Source: Brumimicrobium mesophilum (GTDB lineage Bacteria; Bacteroidota; Bacteroidia; Flavobacteriales_D; Crocinitomicaceae). From it: a DNA stretch of 64,000 bases. Numbering within the stretch: position 1 is the stretch's first letter; each line of letters opens with the position of its first letter. Below the pieces are notes generated by a model. It was not told the origin of the DNA and did not search any database. It saw only the letters and a program-made list of their open reading frames with translations. The DNA lies in contig NZ_PVSS01000012.1 in NCBI RefSeq assembly GCF_003025005.1, forward strand, positions 62,001-126,000, in the 5' to 3' direction. Shown piece by piece: positions 48,880 through 61,085 of the stretch. Made by a program: the position numbers and the translations under genes.

Positions 48880-50187
48880 TTAAAACAACTTCTGAAATCC
48901 ACCACTCAACAAAGAAATATTCAATCTTGCTGTTTGATACTCAATTTGAGATTGCAACAACCTTCCTTCGGCTTGAATGGCGCTGTATTGAATTTCCCTT
49001 AGTTCTAAAGGTGTAATACTTCCGGCTTTAAGCGCTGTTTCTGAAATTTCAATAATCGATTGTGTTTGTGAAATATTACGTTCTTCGAATGATAATTTCT
49101 CTTCAGCAAATTGTATCATTTGATAGTAGTTCCTTAAATCGGCTAATGCATTAATCGAATCATTTTGATAAGCAAGTTCTGAACGTTCAACATTCAATCT
49201 GCTATTTCTCAATTCCGTAACGCTAGAAAGTTGGTTCAAAATGCTCCAAGATGCAGTGATTCCCACACTAGGTCCGTAACTTCTGTTTGAGGCCAAGAAA
49301 CCTACTTCATTTACTGAATTTCCAAAATTGTATGCTGCATAAAAACTTAGTTGAGGATAAAATTTACTTTTCGCTTCTTTAGTTGATAATTCTGAAATAG
49401 CAATGTTCGCTTTAGCTTGCATAATTGAAGTGTTTTGCGCCATGAATTGGGTTGCTATTGCATCCCATTCTTGCGTTTCTTCTCTTGTACCTAAATTTCC
49501 TTCAACAATTATTTCTTGTGTAACATCTAGTTGAAGAATCTTAATTAAATCTGCTTTTACTTGAGCTTGAGATTGTTTATTGGCAATGTATGCCGCGCTA
49601 TCAGCGGTTAAATCTAATTCTGCTTGCATCAATTGAATTCTATTTGCTGCTCCGCTATTGAAACGGTTCTCAGTATAATTCTTACGCATTTTAGACAATT
49701 CAATGGCGCTTGTATACACTTCCTCCATTTCTTGTAAAGACAATAACGTATAGTAATTAACTACCGCCTCATAAATTTTCATTTCCATTTGAGCGCGCAG
49801 ATTCAATTCGCTAAAACGTTCCAATTCATCCAACTTTTTGTCAGTTGCAAACATTTTAAAACCATCAAAGAATGTCCAGTTTAACATTATTCCAGCGTTA
49901 AAAGCTCTGTTGTTGGCATTCGTTGCTTCGTTTACATCTCCACTGATGAATTCTTGTCTGGCTGTATTTACTGTTAAATCTTGCGTCGCGTCAGCATCTA
50001 TAGTGGGAAGGTATCCTGCTGCTCCAATATTGTTTTCATTCTTGGCGATTTCAACATCTACTTTCGCAATTTGAATTCCAAAATTTTGCGATAAAACACG
50101 ATTCACGACTTGTTCTAGACCTAGCTTTTCTTGTGCTATCGAAAAGGAACTCAAAAAAAATAAACCAGCTATAATTAATATTTTCAT
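48880..50187 (-). CDS. TolC family outer-membrane efflux protein (RND operon)
   Basis: A 435-residue outer-membrane channel subunit with a signal peptide at about 1-18 (IAGLFFLSSFSIAQ). Long amphipathic helices fill the rest, in two repeats typical of TolC, with LGLEQVVNRVLSQNFGIQIA at the start and SGAANRIQLMQAELDL and KAGSITPLELREIQ as the paired TolC signatures. It would form the trimeric exit duct for the RND pump encoded just upstream. Its start overlaps the pump's stop by four bases, so it is coupled to it. It is the last gene of the operon. Confidence 0.93.
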   Translation of the reverse strand: MKILIIAGLFFLSSFSIAQEKLGLEQVVNRVLSQNFGIQIAKVDVEIAKNENNIGAAGYLPTIDADATQDLTVNTARQEFISGDVNEATNANNRAFNAGIMLNWTFFDGFKMFATDKKLDELERFSELNLRAQMEMKIYEAVVNYYTLLSLQEMEEVYTSAIELSKMRKNYTENRFNSGAANRIQLMQAELDLTADSAAYIANKQSQAQVKADLIKILQLDVTQEIIVEGNLGTREETQEWDAIATQFMAQNTSIMQAKANIAISELSTKEAKSKFYPQLSFYAAYNFGNSVNEVGFLASNRSYGPSVGITASWSILNQLSSVTELRNSRLNVERSELAYQNDSINALADLRNYYQMIQFAEEKLSFEERNISQTQSIIEISETALKAGSITPLELREIQYSAIQAEGRLLQSQIEYQTARLNISLLSGGFQKLF

Positions 50188-53100
50188 GATTCTAATGCTT
50201 TATTTTCAGTAGCTTCAGCTTCTGATGATTTTTTTGGTTTCGAAGAAATGTAAATATACAATCCCGGAATAATGTATAAGGTCAGAACCAATGAGAATGT
50301 TAATCCTCCGATTATGGCTAATCCCATCGGAACTCTACTTGTTGCGGCATCACCCAAAGCTAAAGCAATTGGAAGTGCTCCCAGAATTGTTGCTAAAGAA
50401 GTCATCAAAATTGGTCTAAATCGTTCTGCTGATGCATCGATGATAGCAGATTTTAATGATAGACCTGCATCTTTCCTTTGGTTCGCAAATTCTACAATCA
50501 AAATTCCATTTTTGGTCACTAAACCAACCAAAACTATTATCCCAATTTGACTAAAGATGTTCAATGTTTGTCCGAACAGCCAAAGGGTAAGAATTGCTCC
50601 AGCGAGTGCCAATGGAACCGTTAACATTATCGTAAACGGATCTCTAAAGCTTTCGAATTGAGCCGATAATACTAAGTAAACTAGTATCAGAGCTAATCCA
50701 AATGCGAAAATTAAACTTCCTCCACTTTCAGTAAATTCTTTAGATGTTCCAGAAAGTGAGGTGGTGAATGAAGCATCCAACAATTCATCCGCAATTTTAT
50801 CCATTTCTGCAATTCCATCTCCAATGGTTTTGCCTGGGACAGGTGCCGCAGAAATTGTAGCAGAAACATATCTGTTGTAACGGAAAAGTTGTGGCGGACT
50901 TGATTCATCTTTAATATTTACTAAGTTACTCAGCGGAATTAATTCTCCGTTTTTACTTCTCACATTAATTTCTTGTAAATCACTCGGTTCATTTCTGAAC
51001 TCTTTCATTGCCTGACCAATAACTTGATATTGTTTTCCTTCTTTTATGAAATATCCGTAGCGCTGACCAGAGAAATACAATTGCATTGTTTGTGCGATAT
51101 CTAAAACTGAAACACCTAGAGTGCTCGCTTTATCACGATCAATTGTAACTTGTAGTTCAGGTTTGTTGAATTTTAAATTTACATCTACAACTTGGAATAT
51201 TGGACTTTGTCGCGCTCTGTCCATAAAGTCAGGAATTATTTCCTCTAACTTCTCCAAAGTAGGAGCTTGTAAAACATATTCAACTGGAAGGCCCGAACTT
51301 CTTCCTCCACCAATAGTTTGTTCTTGAACCACAAAAGTTCTAGCAAAATTAAATTCTGACAACTTTGCTGTAATTTCATTTGCTAATTCAGCTTGGCTTT
51401 TATCTCTTTCGCCTTTAGGAACAAGATTCATTCTTACAAAACCTGTATTGGTAGAAATTGATGATCCAAACCCTGGTGCTGTAACTGAAAGCAAGTTTTT
51501 TCTTTCTTTCATCGTATCCACATACGCGATTATTTCTTGCTGAAATTCATCCATGGTTTCAAAGGAAGTTCCTTCAGGTGCAGAACTCATAATTCTTAGC
51601 CTTCCTTTGTCTTCCATAGGCGCAAGTTCAGATTGCAATTGACTACCAAAGAAGAAAATAGAACCAACAATAATTGCCATATAAATAAAGGCTTGCCATG
51701 GTTTTTTCATAAAAGCCATCAAAGAACGTTTGTATCCTCTAGTTAATCCATTAAAGAACCTCTCAGATTTTAAGAAAATCTTACTCTTATTTTCTGTTTT
51801 TTTCAACATCCTTGAAGACATCATTGGTGTTAATGTTAAAGACACAAATGATGAAATGATGACTGAACCGGCTACAACAACACCAAACTCCCTAAATAAC
51901 CTTCCTGTTAATCCTTCCAAGAAAATAACAGGCATAAATACCGCTGTTAAGGTAATTGTAGTAGCTAAAATTGCGAATATTATTTCATTTGAACCTTCAA
52001 TAGCGGCTTGTTTAGGCTTCATTCCCCGTTCAATCTTTGTGTAAATATTCTCCATGACTACAATGGCGTCATCTACCACGAGTCCAGTGGTTAAAACAAT
52101 TGCCAATAGTGTTAAAATATTAATTGAGAATCCACTCAAGTACATAATGAAGAATGTACCCACTAATGAAATTGGAATAGCGATAATTGGAACCAAAGTA
52201 GTTCTCCAGTTTCTTAAGAACAGGAAAACAACCAATACAACCAATAGGAAAGAGATGATTACCGTTTCTTTTACTTCGTCAATGGATTTTCGAATGTTTT
52301 CAGTGGTGTCTAAAGCAACACCCAGTTGAATGTCCTCAGGTAAATCAGCACTAATCTCATTGATTTTTTCATAGATTTTATCTACAATTTCAATGTAATT
52401 TGCTCCTGGTTGAGGTTGGATAGCAATTCCGATCATTGGAACACCACCATTTCCTCTTAAAATAGTTCTTTCGTTTTCGGGTCTTAACTCGGCAGTACCG
52501 ATATCCTTCATTCGAATAATTTCACCATTTTCCTCTCTTATAATAAGGTCGTTAAAGTCCGTCTCAGTTGTTAGTCGACCAAATGTACGGATTGTCAATT
52601 CCACATTATCTCCTTCAATTCTTCCTGAGGGGAGCTCAATGTTTTCACGCAATAAGGCTGCTCTAACTTCTGTTGCTGTAATGTTTTTCGCCGTCATTTT
52701 GTTGGGCTCCAACATAAGCTTCATAGAGAATTTCTTTTCTCCCCAAAGGTAAATTCTACTGATTCCAGAAATAGTTTGTAAACGCTCCTTGAATAAATTT
52801 ATTCCGATATCTGTTAATTCTAATAAACTTCTATTGTCTGACTGAACTGTCATTGAGAATATAGTTTCCGCATCAGCATCAGATTTCGCAACAATAGGAG
52901 GATCTGCATCATCGGGTAAATTTCGAATAGCTCCAGACACCTTATCACGAATGTCATTCGCTGCGTTGTCCAAATCTAAATCGAGGTTAAATTCCACCGT
53001 AATTGTACTACGACCATCACTACTCACAGAAGTCATGGTTCTAATTCCTTGCACCTGATTAACTGCTTCCTCAATTGGTTCTGTGATCTGAGATTCAATG

Positions 53101-53273
53101 ATATCAGCGTTTGCACCAGGATAATTGGTGGTAACAGTTATAATTGGAGGATCTACGGATGGGAATTCTCGTACTCCCAAGGAATAAAATCCTATTGCTC
53201 CGAAAATGACAATTACAATGGATAAAACCATTGCCAGAACAGGTCTGTTTATGCTTAATGATGAAATACTCAT
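50184..53273 (-). CDS. RND efflux pump permease (AcrB/HAE1-like)
   Basis: A 1029-residue inner-membrane RND transporter with twelve predicted helices and two large periplasmic loops. The opening SINRPVLAMVLSIVIVIFGAIG helix and VDPPIITVTTNYPGANADIIE stretch are standard. So is the transmembrane proton-relay block VLTTGLVVDDAIVVMENIYT (about 395-414) with its paired Asp residues. The C-terminal half repeats the pattern (GIIVLVGLVTKNGILIVEFAN). It exports small amphiphiles, drugs or detergents, using proton-motive force. It overlaps the adaptor gene upstream and the TolC gene downstream by four bases each. Confidence 0.96.
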   Translation of the reverse strand: MSISSLSINRPVLAMVLSIVIVIFGAIGFYSLGVREFPSVDPPIITVTTNYPGANADIIESQITEPIEEAVNQVQGIRTMTSVSSDGRSTITVEFNLDLDLDNAANDIRDKVSGAIRNLPDDADPPIVAKSDADAETIFSMTVQSDNRSLLELTDIGINLFKERLQTISGISRIYLWGEKKFSMKLMLEPNKMTAKNITATEVRAALLRENIELPSGRIEGDNVELTIRTFGRLTTETDFNDLIIREENGEIIRMKDIGTAELRPENERTILRGNGGVPMIGIAIQPQPGANYIEIVDKIYEKINEISADLPEDIQLGVALDTTENIRKSIDEVKETVIISFLLVVLVVFLFLRNWRTTLVPIIAIPISLVGTFFIMYLSGFSINILTLLAIVLTTGLVVDDAIVVMENIYTKIERGMKPKQAAIEGSNEIIFAILATTITLTAVFMPVIFLEGLTGRLFREFGVVVAGSVIISSFVSLTLTPMMSSRMLKKTENKSKIFLKSERFFNGLTRGYKRSLMAFMKKPWQAFIYMAIIVGSIFFFGSQLQSELAPMEDKGRLRIMSSAPEGTSFETMDEFQQEIIAYVDTMKERKNLLSVTAPGFGSSISTNTGFVRMNLVPKGERDKSQAELANEITAKLSEFNFARTFVVQEQTIGGGRSSGLPVEYVLQAPTLEKLEEIIPDFMDRARQSPIFQVVDVNLKFNKPELQVTIDRDKASTLGVSVLDIAQTMQLYFSGQRYGYFIKEGKQYQVIGQAMKEFRNEPSDLQEINVRSKNGELIPLSNLVNIKDESSPPQLFRYNRYVSATISAAPVPGKTIGDGIAEMDKIADELLDASFTTSLSGTSKEFTESGGSLIFAFGLALILVYLVLSAQFESFRDPFTIMLTVPLALAGAILTLWLFGQTLNIFSQIGIIVLVGLVTKNGILIVEFANQRKDAGLSLKSAIIDASAERFRPILMTSLATILGALPIALALGDAATSRVPMGLAIIGGLTFSLVLTLYIIPGLYIYISSKPKKSSEAEATENKALES

Positions 53274-54313
53274 TTAATTTCGTTTTTCGCTTTTATGTCT
53301 GCACCAACTCTCATTCCCAATAACCCCGTAAGAACTATAGAATCATTTGGCTCTACCTCTCCAAAAATCTGAACATTTTTATTCGATCGGTTTCCAATAT
53401 TTACTTTTCGCTGTGCAGCTTTTCCATTTTCAAAAACCCACACAATTTGACCATCAATTACAGAAACGATAGCTGATGTTGGAACGGTGATACTGTTTGG
53501 AGATTCTCCTAAATTAAAATCAACATTAACAAATCCTCCAGCTACAATGTTTTCACTGCTTTCCACTTTAGCTCGAACATTCAACATTTGGGTGTTTTGA
53601 TTAATTATGGGACTAATGGCATAAACAGTTGCTTGAACTGGTGTAGAGCTTATCGAATCGGAAGGAGGACGCAAGGAGACTTTTTGCCCATTTTTTACTT
53701 TATGAGCATAGCGTTGTGCGATCGAGAAATCAACTTTAAGTTGATTGTTCTGAGCTAAGACAGTGATTAAATCACTTGAGGTTATAAAAGCACCTTCACT
53801 AATTTCTCTTAATCCAACTGTTCCCTCAAATGGAGCCGTTATTCTTCCTTTTGCAATTTGAACGTCCAATGATTGAATTTGTGCTTTTAAAGAGTTTACA
53901 GAAGATTCCGCCTGTTCAAATGCCTCTTCTGTTCCTGCCTCGCTTTCAAAAAGTGATTTTTTTCGAGATTGATCCTTTTTAGCTAATGCTAAATCAACAT
54001 TTAATTTACTTCTTTCAGCTTGAAGAATGTCTGTATCAACTGTCACTAATAATTGACCTTTTTTGATCAAGTTTCCTTCTTCAAAATGAATTTTTTTAAC
54101 TCTACCGCTCACTTCACTGTATATCATGACTTGTTCGAAAGGCATTGTTTTTCCTGGAATTGTAATGATTTCCTCAAAAGGCTGAACTTTTGCAACATAA
54201 TAATCTACATTGGTATAGTCGATTTCTCCAGTTGCGTTTTTTAAACCAGGTTCTTCTCCGCAAGAAATGAGAATCAGCAATGGGATTGAAAAAAGGAGCG
54301 TTTTTATTTTCAT
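53270..54313 (-). CDS. RND efflux periplasmic adaptor lipoprotein
   Basis: A 347-residue membrane fusion protein with a lipoprotein signal (lipobox LISC, Cys18). It has the usual order: a beta-barrel and lipoyl half (GKTMPFEQVMIYSEVSGRVKK), a coiled hairpin (about 95-150), the second lipoyl half (GRITAPFEGTVGLREISEGAFI) and membrane-proximal domains (ending MRVGADIKAKNEIK). It links the RND pump to TolC. It follows a MarR-family gene by 3 bases and overlaps the pump gene by four, so all four genes form one operon. Confidence 0.94.
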   Translation of the reverse strand: MKIKTLLFSIPLLILISCGEEPGLKNATGEIDYTNVDYYVAKVQPFEEIITIPGKTMPFEQVMIYSEVSGRVKKIHFEEGNLIKKGQLLVTVDTDILQAERSKLNVDLALAKKDQSRKKSLFESEAGTEEAFEQAESSVNSLKAQIQSLDVQIAKGRITAPFEGTVGLREISEGAFITSSDLITVLAQNNQLKVDFSIAQRYAHKVKNGQKVSLRPPSDSISSTPVQATVYAISPIINQNTQMLNVRAKVESSENIVAGGFVNVDFNLGESPNSITVPTSAIVSVIDGQIVWVFENGKAAQRKVNIGNRSNKNVQIFGEVEPNDSIVLTGLLGMRVGADIKAKNEIK

Positions 54314-54316
54314 TTT

Positions 54317-54796
54317 CTATTTATTTAATCTTTTGTAATCTAAAACAATTCTGTCACCTTCAATTGGACCAACTTTATTCACGAGATTTGTAATTCCTGA
54401 TAAAACAAGTGCTTTGTTTTCTGAGTCAATGGCATCAATAAATTGTTGATCAGTTTCAATCAATGCATGCTCTATCACAGGAACATATTTTTTTCCAATA
54501 GCCGTGACGTGAAGTAAAAATGATCGTTTATCATTGGGGTGTTTTATTCTTTCAATGAAATTCTTGTCGGAAAGATATTTCAAAATCCTCACAACTAGCA
54601 CTTTATCAGTTTGCAATAGTTCGGAAAGTCTTTTTGATGTTATATCTCCGTCATTGTCAGCAATTAACCAAAAAGCATAGAAATATCTATCAATAGGTAA
54701 ATCGTTCAATTTAGCACCCAAAATACTCAGGTATTGCTTCGTTAAAATCGCAAATAATTTGCCCAAAGGAGTTATTTGTTGTTTTGTTTCTGACAT
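54317..54796 (-). CDS. MarR family transcriptional regulator
   Basis: A 159-residue winged-helix regulator of the MarR family. The DNA-binding part includes DGDITSKRLSELLQTDKVLVVRILKYLSDKNFI (helices 3 and 4, about residues 53-86) and the wing HPNDKRSFLLHVTAIGKK. MarR proteins often repress drug-efflux operons and release DNA when they bind phenolic or similar ligands. As the first gene of the adaptor / pump / TolC operon it most likely regulates its own transcript. No clear palindrome was found immediately upstream. Confidence 0.92.
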   Translation of the reverse strand: MSETKQQITPLGKLFAILTKQYLSILGAKLNDLPIDRYFYAFWLIADNDGDITSKRLSELLQTDKVLVVRILKYLSDKNFIERIKHPNDKRSFLLHVTAIGKKYVPVIEHALIETDQQFIDAIDSENKALVLSGITNLVNKVGPIEGDRIVLDYKRLNK

Positions 54797-54959
54797 TAAA
54801 TTTTGTTATTCTTTAGAAAGTTTACAAAGTTAACTAATTAACGAGTTTTTTGAGATATTGTTTAGATAAGTTCTAAATAAAGTGTTAAAAGGTGGAGTAA
54901 TGATTTTGTTGGTTGAAAACCACTTAAATTTTTCTTCTAACTTTGAAAAAAAAATCACA

Positions 54960-55733
54960 ATGAAGCAGATATTCACTTTCATTTTAATTATTCTATGTCT
55001 TTCAGTTTCCATTGAAGGGAGAGCCTGGGGATTGTTGGGGCACCGCGTAATTGGTGAAATAGCAAGTTTACACTTACATGAATCCACAAAGAATAAGATT
55101 CAAAATATTCTAGGTCACCAAACTTTGGCGGAAGTGAGTACTTGGATGGATGATATTAAATCAGATTCAAAATATGATTCTTTAAAACCTTGGCATTATA
55201 CAACGATTCCTGATGGAATGAAGTACAACGAAACCAATGTAAATCCAAAAGGAGATGTGATTTACGGAATTAACTTCATCGTAGAAGAGTTAAAAAAAGG
55301 AGAATTAAATCCTCAATTGGAAAAAGAATATTTGATGATGCTCGTACATTTAATTGGAGACATTCATCAACCTTTGCATGTGGGAAATGGTGAAGATAGG
55401 GGTGGGAACCAAGCAAAAGTAACTTGGTTTGGCGAAAGTTCAAATTTACATAGGGTTTGGGACAGTGAAATGATAGATGGGAAATTGTACAGTTATACTG
55501 AATTGACGAAAATAATCAATCATCCAATGCACGAAGAATTAGTGTCATGGCAGTCGGATAGTGTTGAAGATTGGGCACACCAATGCATGGAATTTCGCAA
55601 TGGAATATATGAGTACGGAGACGATTACGGATGGGAATATAAATATCAGTACACTCATTGGGATACAATGAAACTCCAACTTTTAAAAGGTGGAGTGAGG
55701 TTGGCTGGAATCCTCAACGAAATCTATGGATGA
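54960..55733 (+). CDS. S1/P1-type nuclease
   Basis: A 257-residue secreted zinc nuclease of the S1/P1 family, cleaving single-stranded nucleic acid. The start MKQIFTF gives a signal peptide that ends at about residue 22. Mature residue 1 would be Trp23 (AWGLLGHRVIGEIA), the N-terminal zinc ligand in this family. Other ligand blocks are WMDDIKSD, PWHYTTIP, HLIGDIHQPLHVG and HRVWDSEMI. All zinc-binding positions I can identify are present. It lies between the two exporter operons, divergent from the first. Likely used to degrade nucleic acids outside the cytoplasm. Confidence 0.93.
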   Translation: MKQIFTFILIILCLSVSIEGRAWGLLGHRVIGEIASLHLHESTKNKIQNILGHQTLAEVSTWMDDIKSDSKYDSLKPWHYTTIPDGMKYNETNVNPKGDVIYGINFIVEELKKGELNPQLEKEYLMMLVHLIGDIHQPLHVGNGEDRGGNQAKVTWFGESSNLHRVWDSEMIDGKLYSYTELTKIINHPMHEELVSWQSDSVEDWAHQCMEFRNGIYEYGDDYGWEYKYQYTHWDTMKLQLLKGGVRLAGILNEIYG

Positions 55734-55902: not shown

Positions 55903-57303
55903 TCAATTCAACCTCCCCAATTCGTATTCGATTTTCATGAATGCCTTCTGAGACTTTATCAATAAATCAACGAATTTAACTTGTGTACTGATGTAGCTCC
56001 ATTCTCTAGAGTTTACAAGAAATAATGAGCTTTCGCCAGCGTTAAATTTTTGTTGTTCGGCTTGCAATAATCGATTTGTGCTCGTTACAATATCTGAATA
56101 ACCTAAAAGTTGTTGCTGTGTTGTTTCCCAAGTATTCATTGCTGCTGTCACATTTAAATTTATCGATCTTTCCATTTGATCTAAATTATATTGCTGCTCC
56201 ATAATGTCAATATTGGTTTTTTGAAGTTGACCTCTTTCCTTTCTCAAGAATATTGGCATCTTAAAGGTTAAGCCCCAATTGTAATTGTTTATCGAATATC
56301 CTTGAATGAGATCACCATTTAGCGGTTCGTTTAATGCATTATACTTTAAATCTAATTTCGGCTTTAAACGTTCTAAATCTAATTTTCGTTGAATATTAAG
56401 TTGTTCGAGATACAATTGATTCTTGGCCATTTTAGGATGATTTTTTAGTAAAGAATCGAGTCGAATTCTCATTGCTCCAACATCCATTGATGATTCGAAA
56501 TCATTCGTCCTTGGTGGTGAAATGTTTGCCGATAATTCCAAAGGTATTCCATCCTGATTCCAGAGATAAATTTCCAATTGTGCATTGGCATTGCGATAAT
56601 CTAAAATAGCATCTTGTAAATTTATGGTTCTATTTTGATACTGGATATAGGCCTCCAAAGTATCAATGGCAGGACTTTCACCTACAATCGCCGATCTCGT
56701 TAATGCCCTGTAGCGGGTTAAAGCTAAAATTTGACCTTCTTGATAAATTGACAATTTCCTTGATGCGCTAACCCAATCCCAATATGCAGAGATGGCATCT
56801 TTAAATAAATTGTTAATCAATATTTGTTGTTCTGCTTGTGTGATTTCCTGATATACTTGTGCTTTCCTTAAATCGGCTCTTCTTTGATCCATAAATAAAT
56901 CTTGTCCAATTGGAATTGAAATTCCGGCATAAACTAGGCCGTTTGCAGGAGTTCCTCGTTGCGGATTTACGTAATTTCCATCAGATTGTTCATACCCAGC
57001 ATCTATTTCAATACCAAACCATGTTGGAATTTTCATGCCTGCATTCAATAAATCATAATACTGCTTGTCATCAAAATACTTTTGATAAATATCACCATAT
57101 AGATAAGGGTCGAAAGCTCCTTTTGAAGATTTTAGATTTTCAGTTCCGTATTCAATTCTTAAGTTCGCTTGTTTTCCCAAAGGGTGAAAATCTCTTACGA
57201 TTTTTAGAAAGTCGCTCAAACCCAGGACCTGAGTGGTGTCCTGAGACAAAGATGCGCTTGATCCTAAAATAATTAATACAATAATTGAAATAAATTTTTT
57301 CAT
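55903..57303 (-). CDS. TolC family outer-membrane protein (ABC operon)
   Basis: A 466-residue TolC-type channel subunit with a signal peptide at about 1-20 (ISIIVLIILGSSASLSQ). Two helix-rich repeats are seen, with LGLSDFLKIVRDFHPLGKQAN near the start and a final FNAGESSLFLVNSREWSYI block, the usual TolC sequence marks. It would form the outer-membrane exit of a tripartite system with the HlyD-like and ABC proteins encoded just upstream. Its start overlaps the HlyD gene's stop by one base (TAATG), so it is translationally coupled. Confidence 0.92.
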   Translation of the reverse strand: MKKFISIIVLIILGSSASLSQDTTQVLGLSDFLKIVRDFHPLGKQANLRIEYGTENLKSSKGAFDPYLYGDIYQKYFDDKQYYDLLNAGMKIPTWFGIEIDAGYEQSDGNYVNPQRGTPANGLVYAGISIPIGQDLFMDQRRADLRKAQVYQEITQAEQQILINNLFKDAISAYWDWVSASRKLSIYQEGQILALTRYRALTRSAIVGESPAIDTLEAYIQYQNRTINLQDAILDYRNANAQLEIYLWNQDGIPLELSANISPPRTNDFESSMDVGAMRIRLDSLLKNHPKMAKNQLYLEQLNIQRKLDLERLKPKLDLKYNALNEPLNGDLIQGYSINNYNWGLTFKMPIFLRKERGQLQKTNIDIMEQQYNLDQMERSINLNVTAAMNTWETTQQQLLGYSDIVTSTNRLLQAEQQKFNAGESSLFLVNSREWSYISTQVKFVDLLIKSQKAFMKIEYELGRLN

Positions 57304-58655
57304 TATTCTGATTTTTCTTTAGACAGGGTTTTCCCATTGGAATAGTAATCTGGAGGGAAACCATTAAATTGACGCCACATCTCATACCAAACTGGAACAT
57401 CAGAAAGCAAGAGCATGCTACTCACACCACCACCAACACTTAATACACTTGGCCATTCATTCTCAGATTCTTCTGGTTGAACCAAGATTCTAAAAGTTCC
57501 ATTGGGTTGTGCAAATCTATCAACGGCATAAACAGTTCCTCCATAAGTACCATAACTTTTATCTGGCCATCCAGAAAACACTATTGCAGGCCATCCATCA
57601 AATTGAATTCTAACATGTTGTCCTTTTTTAATTAAAGGAATATCAATTGGCTGCACATACATTTCGACAGCCAAAGCAGCATTGGCAGGCATTATACTCA
57701 CAATTTGATCACTTTCTTTTATTAATTCTCCAATTCCCGTAGAAATAGATTGAGTAATATACCCATCCTGTGGGGCAGTTACGTAATAAAATCCTTGTCG
57801 AATTTCATAATTAGACAGTTTGTTTTCTAAACCTTTCATTTCTTTAAGGGCGGACATTTGATTTGATTCAGTGCTAAATTTTTCAGAATTAATTTTAGCA
57901 ATACTCATGTTGTAATCATTTCTTATCGAGTTCAATTCTATCTTCGCATTGATTACATCATTTCGTGAAGCCAATAAATCATTCTCAGCTCCAATTTTTT
58001 CTGCTACTGTCTTCTGGAATGTTAATTTTCTATTTTCAAAATCAGTCTTTGACTTTAATCCATCATCCAAAAGTGTTTGAAATCGATCCAATTGACCTTT
58101 AGCAATTTCTTCATTCATTTTAGAGGCTTCAAACTTAATACTATCACTTTGAACTTTGAGCTCTGTTTGCTTTAGTTTGTTTTTAGCTTGTTGTAATTTT
58201 AATTTTACAATTTCACGTAAACTACCTACTTGCTCCTCTAGTGTTTTCACCTTGTCGGAGTAGGCCTCTATTGATTTTTCGGAAGCATCAACTTGATCTG
58301 ATGTGCGTTCAATGAGTTGAGGGTCAAAATATTCTGGTTTAACTTCAGTGATTTTCATAATCGTATCTCCTTTTTTCACAAAGTCGCCTTCCTGAACAAA
58401 CCATTCGTCAATTCGACCTGGTATAACAGAATGTAACATTTGTGGTCGAGATGAAGGAGATAGAGCTGTTACATTTCCTCTTGCTCGGATATTTTGTGTC
58501 CATGGAACAAATAAGAAAATTAAAAAAATAAGTAAAGCAATAGTTAGAATTTTAAGAAGAACTCTATTCCCAGTGCGGTTTTGTACAGTTATTAACGCAC
58601 TAAAATTTTTGCTGTTTATCCTTTTATGAATTGAAACTTTAGATAAATTTATCAT
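57303..58655 (-). CDS. HlyD family adaptor protein
   Basis: A 450-residue membrane fusion protein of the HlyD type. A single transmembrane helix lies at about 33-52 (LLKILTIALLIFLIFLFVPW), then a lipoyl half (NIRARGNVTALSPSS, IDEWFVQEGDFVKKGDTIMKI). A long coiled coil runs at about 125-290, then YYVTAPQDGYITQSISTG as the second lipoyl half. The coiled coil is longer than in RND adaptors, as expected for type I-like export. It sits one base from the ABC gene and overlaps the TolC gene, so it should bridge them. Confidence 0.92.
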   Translation of the reverse strand: MINLSKVSIHKRINSKNFSALITVQNRTGNRVLLKILTIALLIFLIFLFVPWTQNIRARGNVTALSPSSRPQMLHSVIPGRIDEWFVQEGDFVKKGDTIMKITEVKPEYFDPQLIERTSDQVDASEKSIEAYSDKVKTLEEQVGSLREIVKLKLQQAKNKLKQTELKVQSDSIKFEASKMNEEIAKGQLDRFQTLLDDGLKSKTDFENRKLTFQKTVAEKIGAENDLLASRNDVINAKIELNSIRNDYNMSIAKINSEKFSTESNQMSALKEMKGLENKLSNYEIRQGFYYVTAPQDGYITQSISTGIGELIKESDQIVSIMPANAALAVEMYVQPIDIPLIKKGQHVRIQFDGWPAIVFSGWPDKSYGTYGGTVYAVDRFAQPNGTFRILVQPEESENEWPSVLSVGGGVSSMLLLSDVPVWYEMWRQFNGFPPDYYSNGKTLSKEKSE

Positions 58656-58656
58656 A

Positions 58657-60363
58657 TCAATTATCGTTTAGTAGATGTTTAACTTGGTCGTATTTCCCTT
58701 GTTGTTTGATCGTACCTTTGTCCATCACAACAACTTTGTCGCAGATAGTCATAACTTCAGGATCTTTTGTAATAAAGATGATCGTCCAATTATTCTTCTT
58801 GTCGAAAAGAAAATCCATAATTGTTTTTTTGTCTTCAGGTGTTACACGCTCAAATGAATTTTCAAGAAGTAGAAGCCTTGGTTTGTCCACTATACTTCTG
58901 GCGATTAATAATTTTTGAACAACATTTTTAGGTAAAGATTGACCATTGGGTAAAATCATGGTGTTAAAACCCATTGGAAGTTCTCCAATAAAATCTGTTA
59001 ATCCAACTTTTTCGATGGCCCATCTCACATTTTGTGTACTGGCATCAGATCTTCCTACTTTTATATTTTCAATAATAGTTCCATAAAACAGGTCCTCTTG
59101 TATTAGATTTGTACCTATTACATTTCGTAAAGTTTCTAAATTGAGACTTCCTAGAGAAAGGTCATTATAGGAAATGTTCCCTTGTTTTACGTCATAAAAT
59201 CCTGCTATTATTTGCATCAAGGTGCTTTTTCCTGAACTTATTTTACCAACGATTGCGACACTTTCATTGCTTTTTACTTTCAGTTTTACATTTGATAATG
59301 TCTTAATTGCAGTGCTGGGGTACATGAATGAAAGATCATTGATGCTCAAATTTAAACCTCCTTCAGCTAAGTTTAGTCCAAGGTCTAAACCTTCGTTGTT
59401 CTCCAGAGGTAAGTCTGTTACTTGAGCAACCTTTTCTATTCCCGTTAGTACATCATAAATCGTATCAATGTCACGAATCAACTTTTCAATAGAGTTAATA
59501 ATCATTACGATAATTATTTCTGCAGCAACGAACTGACCAATATTCATTTCTTGTTCCATAACTAATACACCACCAATAATTAATAGTCCAGCTACAATTA
59601 AGACCTTGAATATTACTAATAAAGAGTAATGAGAAACCAATACTTTAAAATGTTTTTCGCGGGCCTCGAGGTAGTCATCTGCATGAATGTTGGATCTCTC
59701 TAACGCATAATCGGTTTTTCCAGCCATCCTAAAGCTAATACTTGTTCGTCCAACTTCTTCAAGCCAATGTACAAGCTTATATTTATGCGTTGATTCTTCA
59801 AAACTTGTAAGTAATCCTCTTTTCCCCATTAATTTGAACATTAAATAGAGAATTACAATTAACAAAAAACTAAATATTATAAAAAATGGATGGTATAAAG
59901 AGAGTAATATTAACCCTAGAAACACTGTAACTCCTGATGTTGAAATAGAAGTTAAGAGTTTTGACATTCCCTTTTGAATTGTTACCACATCAAAAAAACG
60001 ATTTACTAACTCAGGTGTATAGGTTTTAAAAAGTGCTTCTAGTTTTATCCTAGGAACTCTATAAGCAAAGTCAAAAGCTGCTCTAGTAAAAATTCTTTGT
60101 TGAATATTTTCTGTAATTCTTAACTGTAGAATTTGAAGTATTCCTTTTACGGCAAATCCTAAAACAACGATAATAACCATTACAATCCAAGCTGAATTTA
60201 TTCGGCCAATTTGTATAAGATTAATTATGGCTTGAATACCTAATGGTAATGTTAAACTGGTGAGTCCAGCAAAGAATGAATAGTAATAAACATTTCTTAT
60301 CTCTTTGGCATCTATTTTTATTAATTGCCAAAACCTCTGTGATAGGGATAATTTTTCTTCCAT
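58657..60363 (-). CDS. ABC transporter permease/ATPase with degenerate nucleotide-binding domain
   Basis: A 568-residue fused ABC exporter with a six-helix membrane domain (about 25-310) and a C-terminal nucleotide-binding domain. Walker A is intact (GKISSGKST, 373-381) and the Q-loop Gln is present near 422. The other motifs are not. At the LSGGQ position it has LPKNV (477-481). Walker B is LLLLEN with catalytic Glu replaced by Asn (502), and the Asp before it is Glu. The SALD D-loop is FERV, and the H-loop His is Lys (533, ITKDP). It therefore likely binds ATP without normal hydrolysis, or works with a partner. It lacks a peptidase domain. It is first after TetR. Confidence 0.85.
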   Translation of the reverse strand: MEEKLSLSQRFWQLIKIDAKEIRNVYYYSFFAGLTSLTLPLGIQAIINLIQIGRINSAWIVMVIIVVLGFAVKGILQILQLRITENIQQRIFTRAAFDFAYRVPRIKLEALFKTYTPELVNRFFDVVTIQKGMSKLLTSISTSGVTVFLGLILLSLYHPFFIIFSFLLIVILYLMFKLMGKRGLLTSFEESTHKYKLVHWLEEVGRTSISFRMAGKTDYALERSNIHADDYLEAREKHFKVLVSHYSLLVIFKVLIVAGLLIIGGVLVMEQEMNIGQFVAAEIIIVMIINSIEKLIRDIDTIYDVLTGIEKVAQVTDLPLENNEGLDLGLNLAEGGLNLSINDLSFMYPSTAIKTLSNVKLKVKSNESVAIVGKISSGKSTLMQIIAGFYDVKQGNISYNDLSLGSLNLETLRNVIGTNLIQEDLFYGTIIENIKVGRSDASTQNVRWAIEKVGLTDFIGELPMGFNTMILPNGQSLPKNVVQKLLIARSIVDKPRLLLLENSFERVTPEDKKTIMDFLFDKKNNWTIIFITKDPEVMTICDKVVVMDKGTIKQQGKYDQVKHLLNDN

Positions 60364-60366
60364 TAG

Positions 60367-61047
60367 TTATGATTTAATTGTTTTAAGCACCAAGTCTGTA
60401 AAAAACTGTGGAACGTTGTCTTCGCCGTGCTCGTTGCTGGTAGTTAAGGCCGGTAGGTGTCGAATAAAAAATCTTTGCAAATGTGTTCCTTCTATTATAG
60501 TCGAAACTAGCATATGTGGATATTGATAATTAGGATTAATTTCTAAAATTATTTCACTTACCCTTTGAACTACAGATTTGTAGTATGCGAATACTCCATT
60601 TTTATTTTCATCATCTACCAGTTTATTGATATACGCTTTGGCTGACTCATCATATACCACTTTTTGAAGTTTACGTTCATTAATTTCCTTGAAACTTCTA
60701 TCTTCTAAGACCGCCTCGGTTATTACAGCCAATGCTTTTTTTAATTTTAACTCTTTGTCTTCGACATTTGTAATGGCAAAAATTAATTTTGATTCCGTCC
60801 AGCCCCAAAACCAAATCGTCATGTACAATAATACTTTATTCTTATTTTCAAAGTAGCGATATACAGAAGCTTCTGTTGAATTTATCTCCTTGGCTAATTT
60901 TTTGAAAGTAAAAGCCTCAAAACCTATTTCATGCATTAATTCTATGCTTCCCGAGATTATGCGTTTACCTAATTCACTACTGAAAGGGTCTTTCAGAAAG
61001 AGGTAGTCATTAACCTTAATTTGAATATTCGAAAGAAATTGCTGCAT
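60367..61047 (-). CDS. TetR/AcrR family transcriptional regulator
   Basis: A 226-residue regulator of the TetR family with an N-terminal helix-turn-helix at about 25-75: GKRIISGSIELMHEIGFEAF, then FKKLAKEINSTEASVYRYFENKNK. The remainder is a helical ligand domain. I use the ATG giving MQQFLSN; a GTG five codons upstream is possible. A perfect 7-base-arm palindrome and a TAnnTTTG element lie just upstream, and the ABC/HlyD/TolC genes follow within 3 bases. It is therefore probably an autoregulated repressor of the exporter operon. Confidence 0.92.
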   Translation of the reverse strand: MQQFLSNIQIKVNDYLFLKDPFSSELGKRIISGSIELMHEIGFEAFTFKKLAKEINSTEASVYRYFENKNKVLLYMTIWFWGWTESKLIFAITNVEDKELKLKKALAVITEAVLEDRSFKEINERKLQKVVYDESAKAYINKLVDDENKNGVFAYYKSVVQRVSEIILEINPNYQYPHMLVSTIIEGTHLQRFFIRHLPALTTSNEHGEDNVPQFFTDLVLKTIKS

Positions 61048-61061
61048 AAAAGTTTTTTGCA

Positions 61062-61085
61062 CAAATGTAATAGCATTACTATTAC
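61062..61085 (-). promoter_or_regulatory. Promoter and palindromic operator of the tetR-ABC operon
   Basis: GTAATAG (61067-61073) and CTATTAC (61079-61085) form a perfect inverted repeat around CATTA. On the minus strand TACATTTG (61062-61069) matches the -7 element and overlaps the palindrome's edge, 15 bases from the ATG. Overlap with the promoter fits repression by the TetR protein. Confidence 0.7.

Follow-up and report, generated by a model that had tools for sequence, protein, structure and literature searches.

ABC exporters and type I-like tripartite pumps are conventionally presented as driven by ATP, and a functional ABC ATPase is marked by an LSGGQ signature, a Walker A motif, the D-E pair of Walker B and the His of the H-loop. 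Type I exporters such as HlyB are encoded in the gene order ABC-HlyD-TolC. In heterodimeric exporters (TM287/288, TAP, BmrCD, TmrAB), degenerate catalytic residues and a retained Walker A motif occur alongside one canonical site. The membrane domains of truncated MsbA (MsbA-MD; PMC4979069) and truncated LmrA (LmrA-MD; PMC2704374) perform ion-coupled transport alone, and SbmA is an ABC-like membrane domain without a nucleotide-binding domain (NBD) or coupling helices that is driven by protons via a glutamate ladder (PMC13316013). This ladder is incomplete in YddA, according to the same paper (PMC13316013). In the literature consulted, the concept of an ABC membrane domain acting alone as an ion-coupled transporter has rested on engineered truncations and on the importer SbmA.

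Here we analyze an operon in a stretch of 64,000 nucleotides from Brumimicrobium mesophilum (contig NZ_PVSS01000012.1), referred to as the window. The operon shares its gene order with the HlyB systems, and the model of its ABC subunit superposes on HlyB (8dck) and PCAT1 (8voz) with Foldseek TM-scores of 0.91 and 0.90. Unlike HlyB and PCAT, the window protein lacks the signature, the catalytic Walker B pair and the H-loop His, its membrane domain is not preceded by an N-terminal domain, and its family includes relatives that lack the NBD. It resembles the degenerate sites of heterodimeric exporters in its degenerate catalytic residues and retained Walker A motif, but no gene for a canonical half lies beside it. 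The system looks like a tripartite apparatus of the type I secretion or efflux kind with an ABC fold that lacks the catalytic part of an ABC exporter.

The family also invites comparison with SbmA/BacA (SLiPT). Relatives of the window protein share with these transporters (PMC13316013) an ABC-like membrane domain without an NBD, a membrane Glu and, in a clade of fusion proteins, the loss of coupling helices; in members reduced to the membrane domain, coupling helix 2 is relaxed. The Glu in transmembrane helix 6 (TM6) recalls the incomplete ladder of YddA. The window protein itself differs in having a degenerate NBD and, in its model, coupling helices. SbmA is a peptide importer, whereas this family occurs in export operons and matches PF00664, and the SbmA paper names neither HlyD nor TolC (PMC13316013). 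MsbA-MD and LmrA-MD are engineered, whereas here the deletion of the NBD is natural, recurrent and embedded in a tripartite operon. Among the papers listed by literature searches, none reports an NBD-less or doubly degenerate tripartite ABC exporter, and none names a fusion between such a membrane domain and HlyD.

The operon and its ABC subunit

The ABC subunit is encoded by an intact, uninterrupted ORF of 568 residues on the minus strand (58657..60363) and matches Pfam ABC_membrane (PF00664) and ABC_tran (PF00005). It is preceded by a TetR-family regulator of 231 residues (60367..61062; TetR_N) and followed by a HlyD-type periplasmic adaptor of 450 residues (57303..58655; HlyD_3, with TIGR01843 below its cut-off) and a TolC-type outer-membrane efflux protein of 466 residues (55903..57303; OEP, 5.2e-35). 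All four genes lie on the minus strand, with gaps of 3 nt between TetR and ABC and 1 nt between ABC and HlyD, and an overlap of 1 nt between HlyD and TolC; the tight placement between partners reported by a first-pass annotation of this DNA is borne out. The three components of a type I secretion system, namely an inner-membrane ABC protein, a HlyD adaptor and a TolC channel, are therefore all encoded at the locus. From its genes, the operon is predicted to encode a tripartite exporter with a TetR regulator. Brumimicrobium glaciale supplies the closest named relative of the ABC subunit (L038, 81%). The neighboring genes at 48880-54796, on the minus strand, encode another complete tripartite pump, comprising a MarR regulator, an RND-type adaptor, an AcrB-type RND permease of 1029 residues and a separate TolC-type protein. 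Between both pump operons, on the opposite strand, lies an S1/P1-type nuclease gene (54882-55733).

An AlphaFold2 model of the ABC subunit (51 sequences, mean pLDDT 85.9) has an ordinary exporter fold, and its best Foldseek matches are TM287/288, PCAT1, HlyB and MsbA. The membrane domain spans residues 1-325 (59389..60363) and corresponds to the part kept by NBD-less relatives. Coupling helices are present in the model; DSSP places coupling helix 2, which is relaxed or deleted in those relatives, at residues 208-213 (59725..59742). Glu282, within the TM6 motif GQFVAAE (59518..59520), is nearly invariant in the family alignments. The degenerate NBD, delimited by Pfam, by the model and by alignment with other exporters of the same genome, comprises residues 335-560 (58684..59361).

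The first-pass annotation had described an NBD that keeps Walker A and has lost nearly all other ATPase motifs within 58765-58935, an interval that corresponds exactly to residues 477-533. Five other exporters of the same genome have, in the same alignment columns, LSGGQ (one LSTGQ), D-E (one D-D) and His. The window protein instead has LPKNV at residues 477-481 (58921..58935), LLLLEN at the hhhhDE position of Walker B at residues 497-502 (58858..58875), where E-N replaces D-E, and Lys533 in place of the H-loop His (58765..58767), so that all three substitutions are as originally read. Its Walker A, GKISSGKST at residues 373-381 (59221..59247), requires a small amendment: the GK(S/T) core and Lys379 are kept, but the middle Gly is Ser. 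Among the features of a functional type IV ABC exporter, the protein thus has the membrane domain and Walker A, and lacks LSGGQ, the Walker B D-E pair and the H-loop His.

Degeneration and loss of the NBD in the family

Relatives are widespread. At E 1e-80 or better, 92 of the 395 genomes in a phylum sample (own genome included) match the window protein; when the membrane domain served as query, 197 of the 395 in a class sample matched at 1e-30, with weak class-level matches followed in 30 genomes. After removal of identical copies, 237 distinct family proteins, including that of the window, were aligned. These were collected in similarity searches that used the window protein or its membrane domain as query and, in two families of genomes, NBD-less queries, so the shares below should not be read as frequencies in nature, and the sample may hold too few members whose NBD is closer to canonical. 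The counts exclude one canonical row from the window's own genome (CAN_L006), which lowers the degenerate class from 162 to 161 and a Walker A Lys tally from 168 to 167; a raw LSGGQ/LSTGQ tally had included four canonical rows.

The NBD is degenerate in 161 of the 237 proteins and absent in 51, or 50 once a gene cut by a contig end (L253) is discounted. Four proteins have D-E without His, and two lack the Walker A Lys. The H-loop His is found in none of the 161 degenerate proteins, in which the Walker B pair is E-D in 85 and E-N in 16. Homologues with LSGGQ, D-E and His, which the first-pass annotation had named as evidence against its reading, were found only in part: D-E with His occurs in 19 proteins, all outside the window's class, and LSGGQ in none of the 186 NBD-bearing members. 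Of these 186, 184 retain the Walker A Lys, and Gly373, Gly378 and Lys379 are among nine NBD residues invariant in 51 sequences. F426, G428 and R489 are family-specific NBD residues, likewise invariant in that set. Further loci from the same class include three without that Lys (L272, L304, L307) and one that keeps His with D-D (L271). Within the stretches examined, HlyD lies downstream of 134 of 137 NBD-bearing loci and TolC downstream of 126. The pattern is family-wide, which rules out a mutation peculiar to this gene or its individual decay, and suggests that the annotation ‘ABC transporter ATP-binding protein’ is misleading for the family. Three relatives from one family of genomes (f48; L138, in two pieces, L144 and L145) have D-E without His and no HlyD downstream, within 5.9 kb for L138 and L145 and within 0.2 kb for L144; these relatives may work without an adaptor.

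In the short form, the gene stops after the membrane domain; for example, HlyD starts at once in L146 and L147. By open-frame length alone, this form is found in 25 of 101 matching genomes in family f9 and 36 of 111 in f10, and a third family, f3, contributes five more loci. In all 32 short-form loci with flanks (L253 apart), the start of HlyD falls between -14 and +118 nt of the stop, with a median of -8, and TolC comes after it. Five short-form pairs show dN/dS of 0.05-0.29, indicative of purifying selection. Ten loci (L308-L317; e.g. L310, 5977-8232) have a single ORF of 747-784 residues in which membrane domain and HlyD are fused; TolC follows in 10/10, and 9/10 stretches contain a TetR-like gene. 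The NBD-less relatives match PF00664 and no other ABC-type membrane family at E 0.1. Two f10 genomes (G876, G907) have a longer, NBD-bearing family copy in addition to the short form. L253, with an ORF that ends 2 nt from the contig end, was rejected as an independent NBD loss; it was included in a quick tree and left out of the careful one. Some members (L118, L130, L154, L254, L157) have an N-terminal extension ahead of the membrane domain, with total lengths of about 690-840 residues. The extension was considered as a C39 peptidase, but no Pfam peptidase matched it at E 0.1 in these five, nor did any other Pfam family match it convincingly. The short forms fall inside the clade of these longer members but have no such N-terminal domain.

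A careful maximum-likelihood tree of the membrane domain was built from 88 rows (68 representatives thinned by identity and 20 loci) after rows with fewer than 250 filled columns were dropped. A branch with 100/100 support sets the D-E + His rows apart; three D-E-without-His rows and a single degenerate row (L139) fall on their side of it, and every other row falls on the opposite, degenerate side. Nested within that degenerate side, the short-form rows make up a clade of their own (100/99), as do the fusion rows (100/99). Forcing the two together lowers the likelihood by 38.6 (AU p 0.016), which is moderate evidence against a single loss of the NBD. In the shortest history, the catalytic motifs would have decayed first and the NBD would then have been lost twice within the degenerate group.

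Relatives also occur on sphingomonad plasmids. Of 22 plasmid records matched, the NBD was read in seven from Sphingomonadales (L348, L349, L351-L355); a Persicobacter record (L350) gave no ORF under the motif filter. The P-loop is missing in all seven proteins read, including that of Novosphingobium aromaticivorans pNL2 (L348, 5611-9836), which retains an NBD-sized C-terminal part. In each of the six annotated regions the ABC gene comes first, then an adaptor (HlyD or lipoyl-binding) and then TolC. In a tree that included five canonical exporters, from which L131, L141, L304 and L307 were dropped and in which the short forms were thinned to 10, the sphingomonad rows fall outside the Bacteroidota rows, so the loss of the P-loop looks like a separate event; the canonical rows form very long branches, the seven sphingomonad rows are not one clade and the root is unsure.

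Constraint on the NBD and the search for a partner

The two halves of the protein evolve under different constraint. Among 30 orthologues of a canonical exporter (L003), 434 of 435 pairs show higher conservation in the NBD than in the membrane domain, compared with 44 of 171 in the D-E + His group and 2 of 12880 in the degenerate group, the pairs being mutually non-independent. NBD dN/dS is 0.03-0.16 in the 11 pairs, out of 16, that allowed an estimate of dS, which is often near saturation; between the window protein and L038, it is 0.103 for the NBD and 0.034 for the membrane domain. Given the inversion of the pair counts relative to the canonical exporter, the NBD is relaxed relative to the membrane domain, and it is still selected.

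Coupling helix 2 is where an NBD would dock, and loss of its constraint is expected when that partner is lost. Its conservation (residues 206-213), relative to that of the whole membrane domain, is 1.10 in the D-E + His group, 0.90 in the degenerate group, 0.63 in the TMD-only group and 0.15 in the fusions, where 46% of cells are gaps. Coupling helix 1 (residues 107-113) runs against this simple story: it is relaxed only in the fusions (0.22) and not in the TMD-only group (0.74, versus 0.45 and 0.41 in the NBD-bearing groups). TM3 and TM6 are above the membrane-domain average in all four groups, reaching 1.44 and 1.45 times in the fusion clade.

The first-pass annotation had also proposed that the subunit might pair with another ATPase, and this is not supported. 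There is no other ABC match on the window's contig, and BLAST with the family NBD and seven NBDs from the same genome detected another ABC-type NBD in only 5 of 180 stretches, which speaks against a canonical partner nearby. When the NBD of L154, the nearest relative that bears one, was used to query 18 NBD-less genomes (14 short-form, 4 fusion; G876 and G907 lie outside this set), none of the 18 had a family-type NBD among the matches listed, which speaks against relocation of the domain within these genomes. The best of these matches was 31%; most lie within ordinary exporters, and some are stand-alone frames of 257-344 residues (26-31%). In two NBD-bearing control genomes, the same query returned 100% (itself) and 50%.

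Proposed energy source of the family

On balance, and with moderate confidence, we favor the reading that the operon encodes an ABC-fold tripartite exporter that no longer hydrolyzes ATP. The inner-membrane subunit retains the ABC-exporter membrane fold but would not function as an ATPase, and its NBD would be a pseudo-ATPase that probably still binds nucleotide through Walker A and possibly serves dimerization or regulation. A dimer of membrane domains would transport by alternating access and hand the substrate on to HlyD-TolC. By analogy with SbmA and the MsbA and LmrA membrane domains, coupling would most likely be to the proton motive force via membrane-embedded carboxylates such as Glu282 of TM6. 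This Glu is found in 18 of 19 D-E + His proteins, 159 of 161 degenerate proteins (Asp in the other two), all 51 NBD-less rows (L253 included), 10/10 fusions and 7/7 sphingomonad proteins; this column reads I, T, V, T and I in the five canonical exporters from the window's own genome. Since it is shared with the D-E + His group, the residue is not tied to the loss of the ATPase and seems to predate it, making it a candidate coupling residue rather than a proof. The non-hydrolyzing role suggested in the first-pass annotation is supported, at the level of motifs, by their family-wide loss and by the NBD-less sister lineages. That the gene is selected rather than decayed also holds, given the conserved gene order and the retention of the operon in those lineages.

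This reading must be weighed against an ATPase that has been rebuilt, in which the E-D or E-N pair and a new signature form an unorthodox nucleotide switch, working by slow hydrolysis or ATP binding alone, that the NBD-less members lost secondarily. The near-invariant Walker A Lys, the low NBD dN/dS and the invariant F426, G428 and R489 all fit such a switch. Given the near-invariant Walker A, nucleotide binding seems to matter still where an NBD is present, and proteins with the E-D pair (85/161) could in principle hydrolyze ATP slowly. The 19 relatives with D-E and His, L271 with its His, the unrelaxed coupling helix 1 of the TMD-only group and the NBD-bearing copies in G876 and G907 also weigh against the favored reading. 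We nevertheless consider a rebuilt ATPase unlikely: in the window protein Asn occupies the catalytic position and both signature and H-loop His are missing, the membrane domain is the better conserved half in all but two of the degenerate pairs, and whole lineages do without the NBD. It is less likely still that the subunit transports nothing and serves as an inert platform in the membrane, or as a passive channel, to hold HlyD-TolC in place while a substrate gradient or another pump powers export. A single chain joining membrane domain and HlyD would suit an anchor, and a complete MarR/RND pump operon adjoins in the window. However, TM3 and TM6 are conserved even in the fusion clade beyond what an anchor seems to need, and the modeled window protein retains an exporter fold. 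A scaffold and an ion-driven transporter look alike at the level of sequence.

Pairing in trans with a canonical ABC subunit encoded elsewhere has precedent in the well-known exporters with one degenerate site (PMC7756269), and the genome does contain other exporters; likewise, G876 and G907 carry an NBD-bearing paralogue beside the short form. Such pairing is nonetheless very improbable in light of the contig-wide and genome-wide searches above and of the degeneration of both coupling helices in the fusion clade. Simple decay, with pseudogenes or assembly artefacts accounting for the pattern, is harder to credit than any of these: L253 and several relatives read later are indeed cut by contig ends, but the ORFs are intact, the operons tight and the exporter genes under purifying selection, and the TMD-only form is common to three families of genomes.

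If ATP hydrolysis has indeed been abandoned, as we favor, the pumps of this family probably run on another energy source. Whether the family moved from ATP to ion-gradient power at least twice, in Bacteroidota and in Sphingomonadales, is evenly poised in our judgment. The surviving intermediates in that case would be a partly canonical NBD, a degenerate NBD with Walker A, an NBD without P-loop, no NBD at all, and a membrane domain fused to HlyD. The family supplies a naturally occurring, widespread series that leads from primary export to export apparently not driven by ATP, in which the ATPase decays, loses its P-loop and disappears, and the membrane domain fuses to HlyD. How a primary transporter becomes a secondary one would be directly testable in an export pump. 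If the proposal is true, the family would stand as the naturally occurring exporter equivalent of SbmA and of the MsbA and LmrA membrane domains made by engineering.
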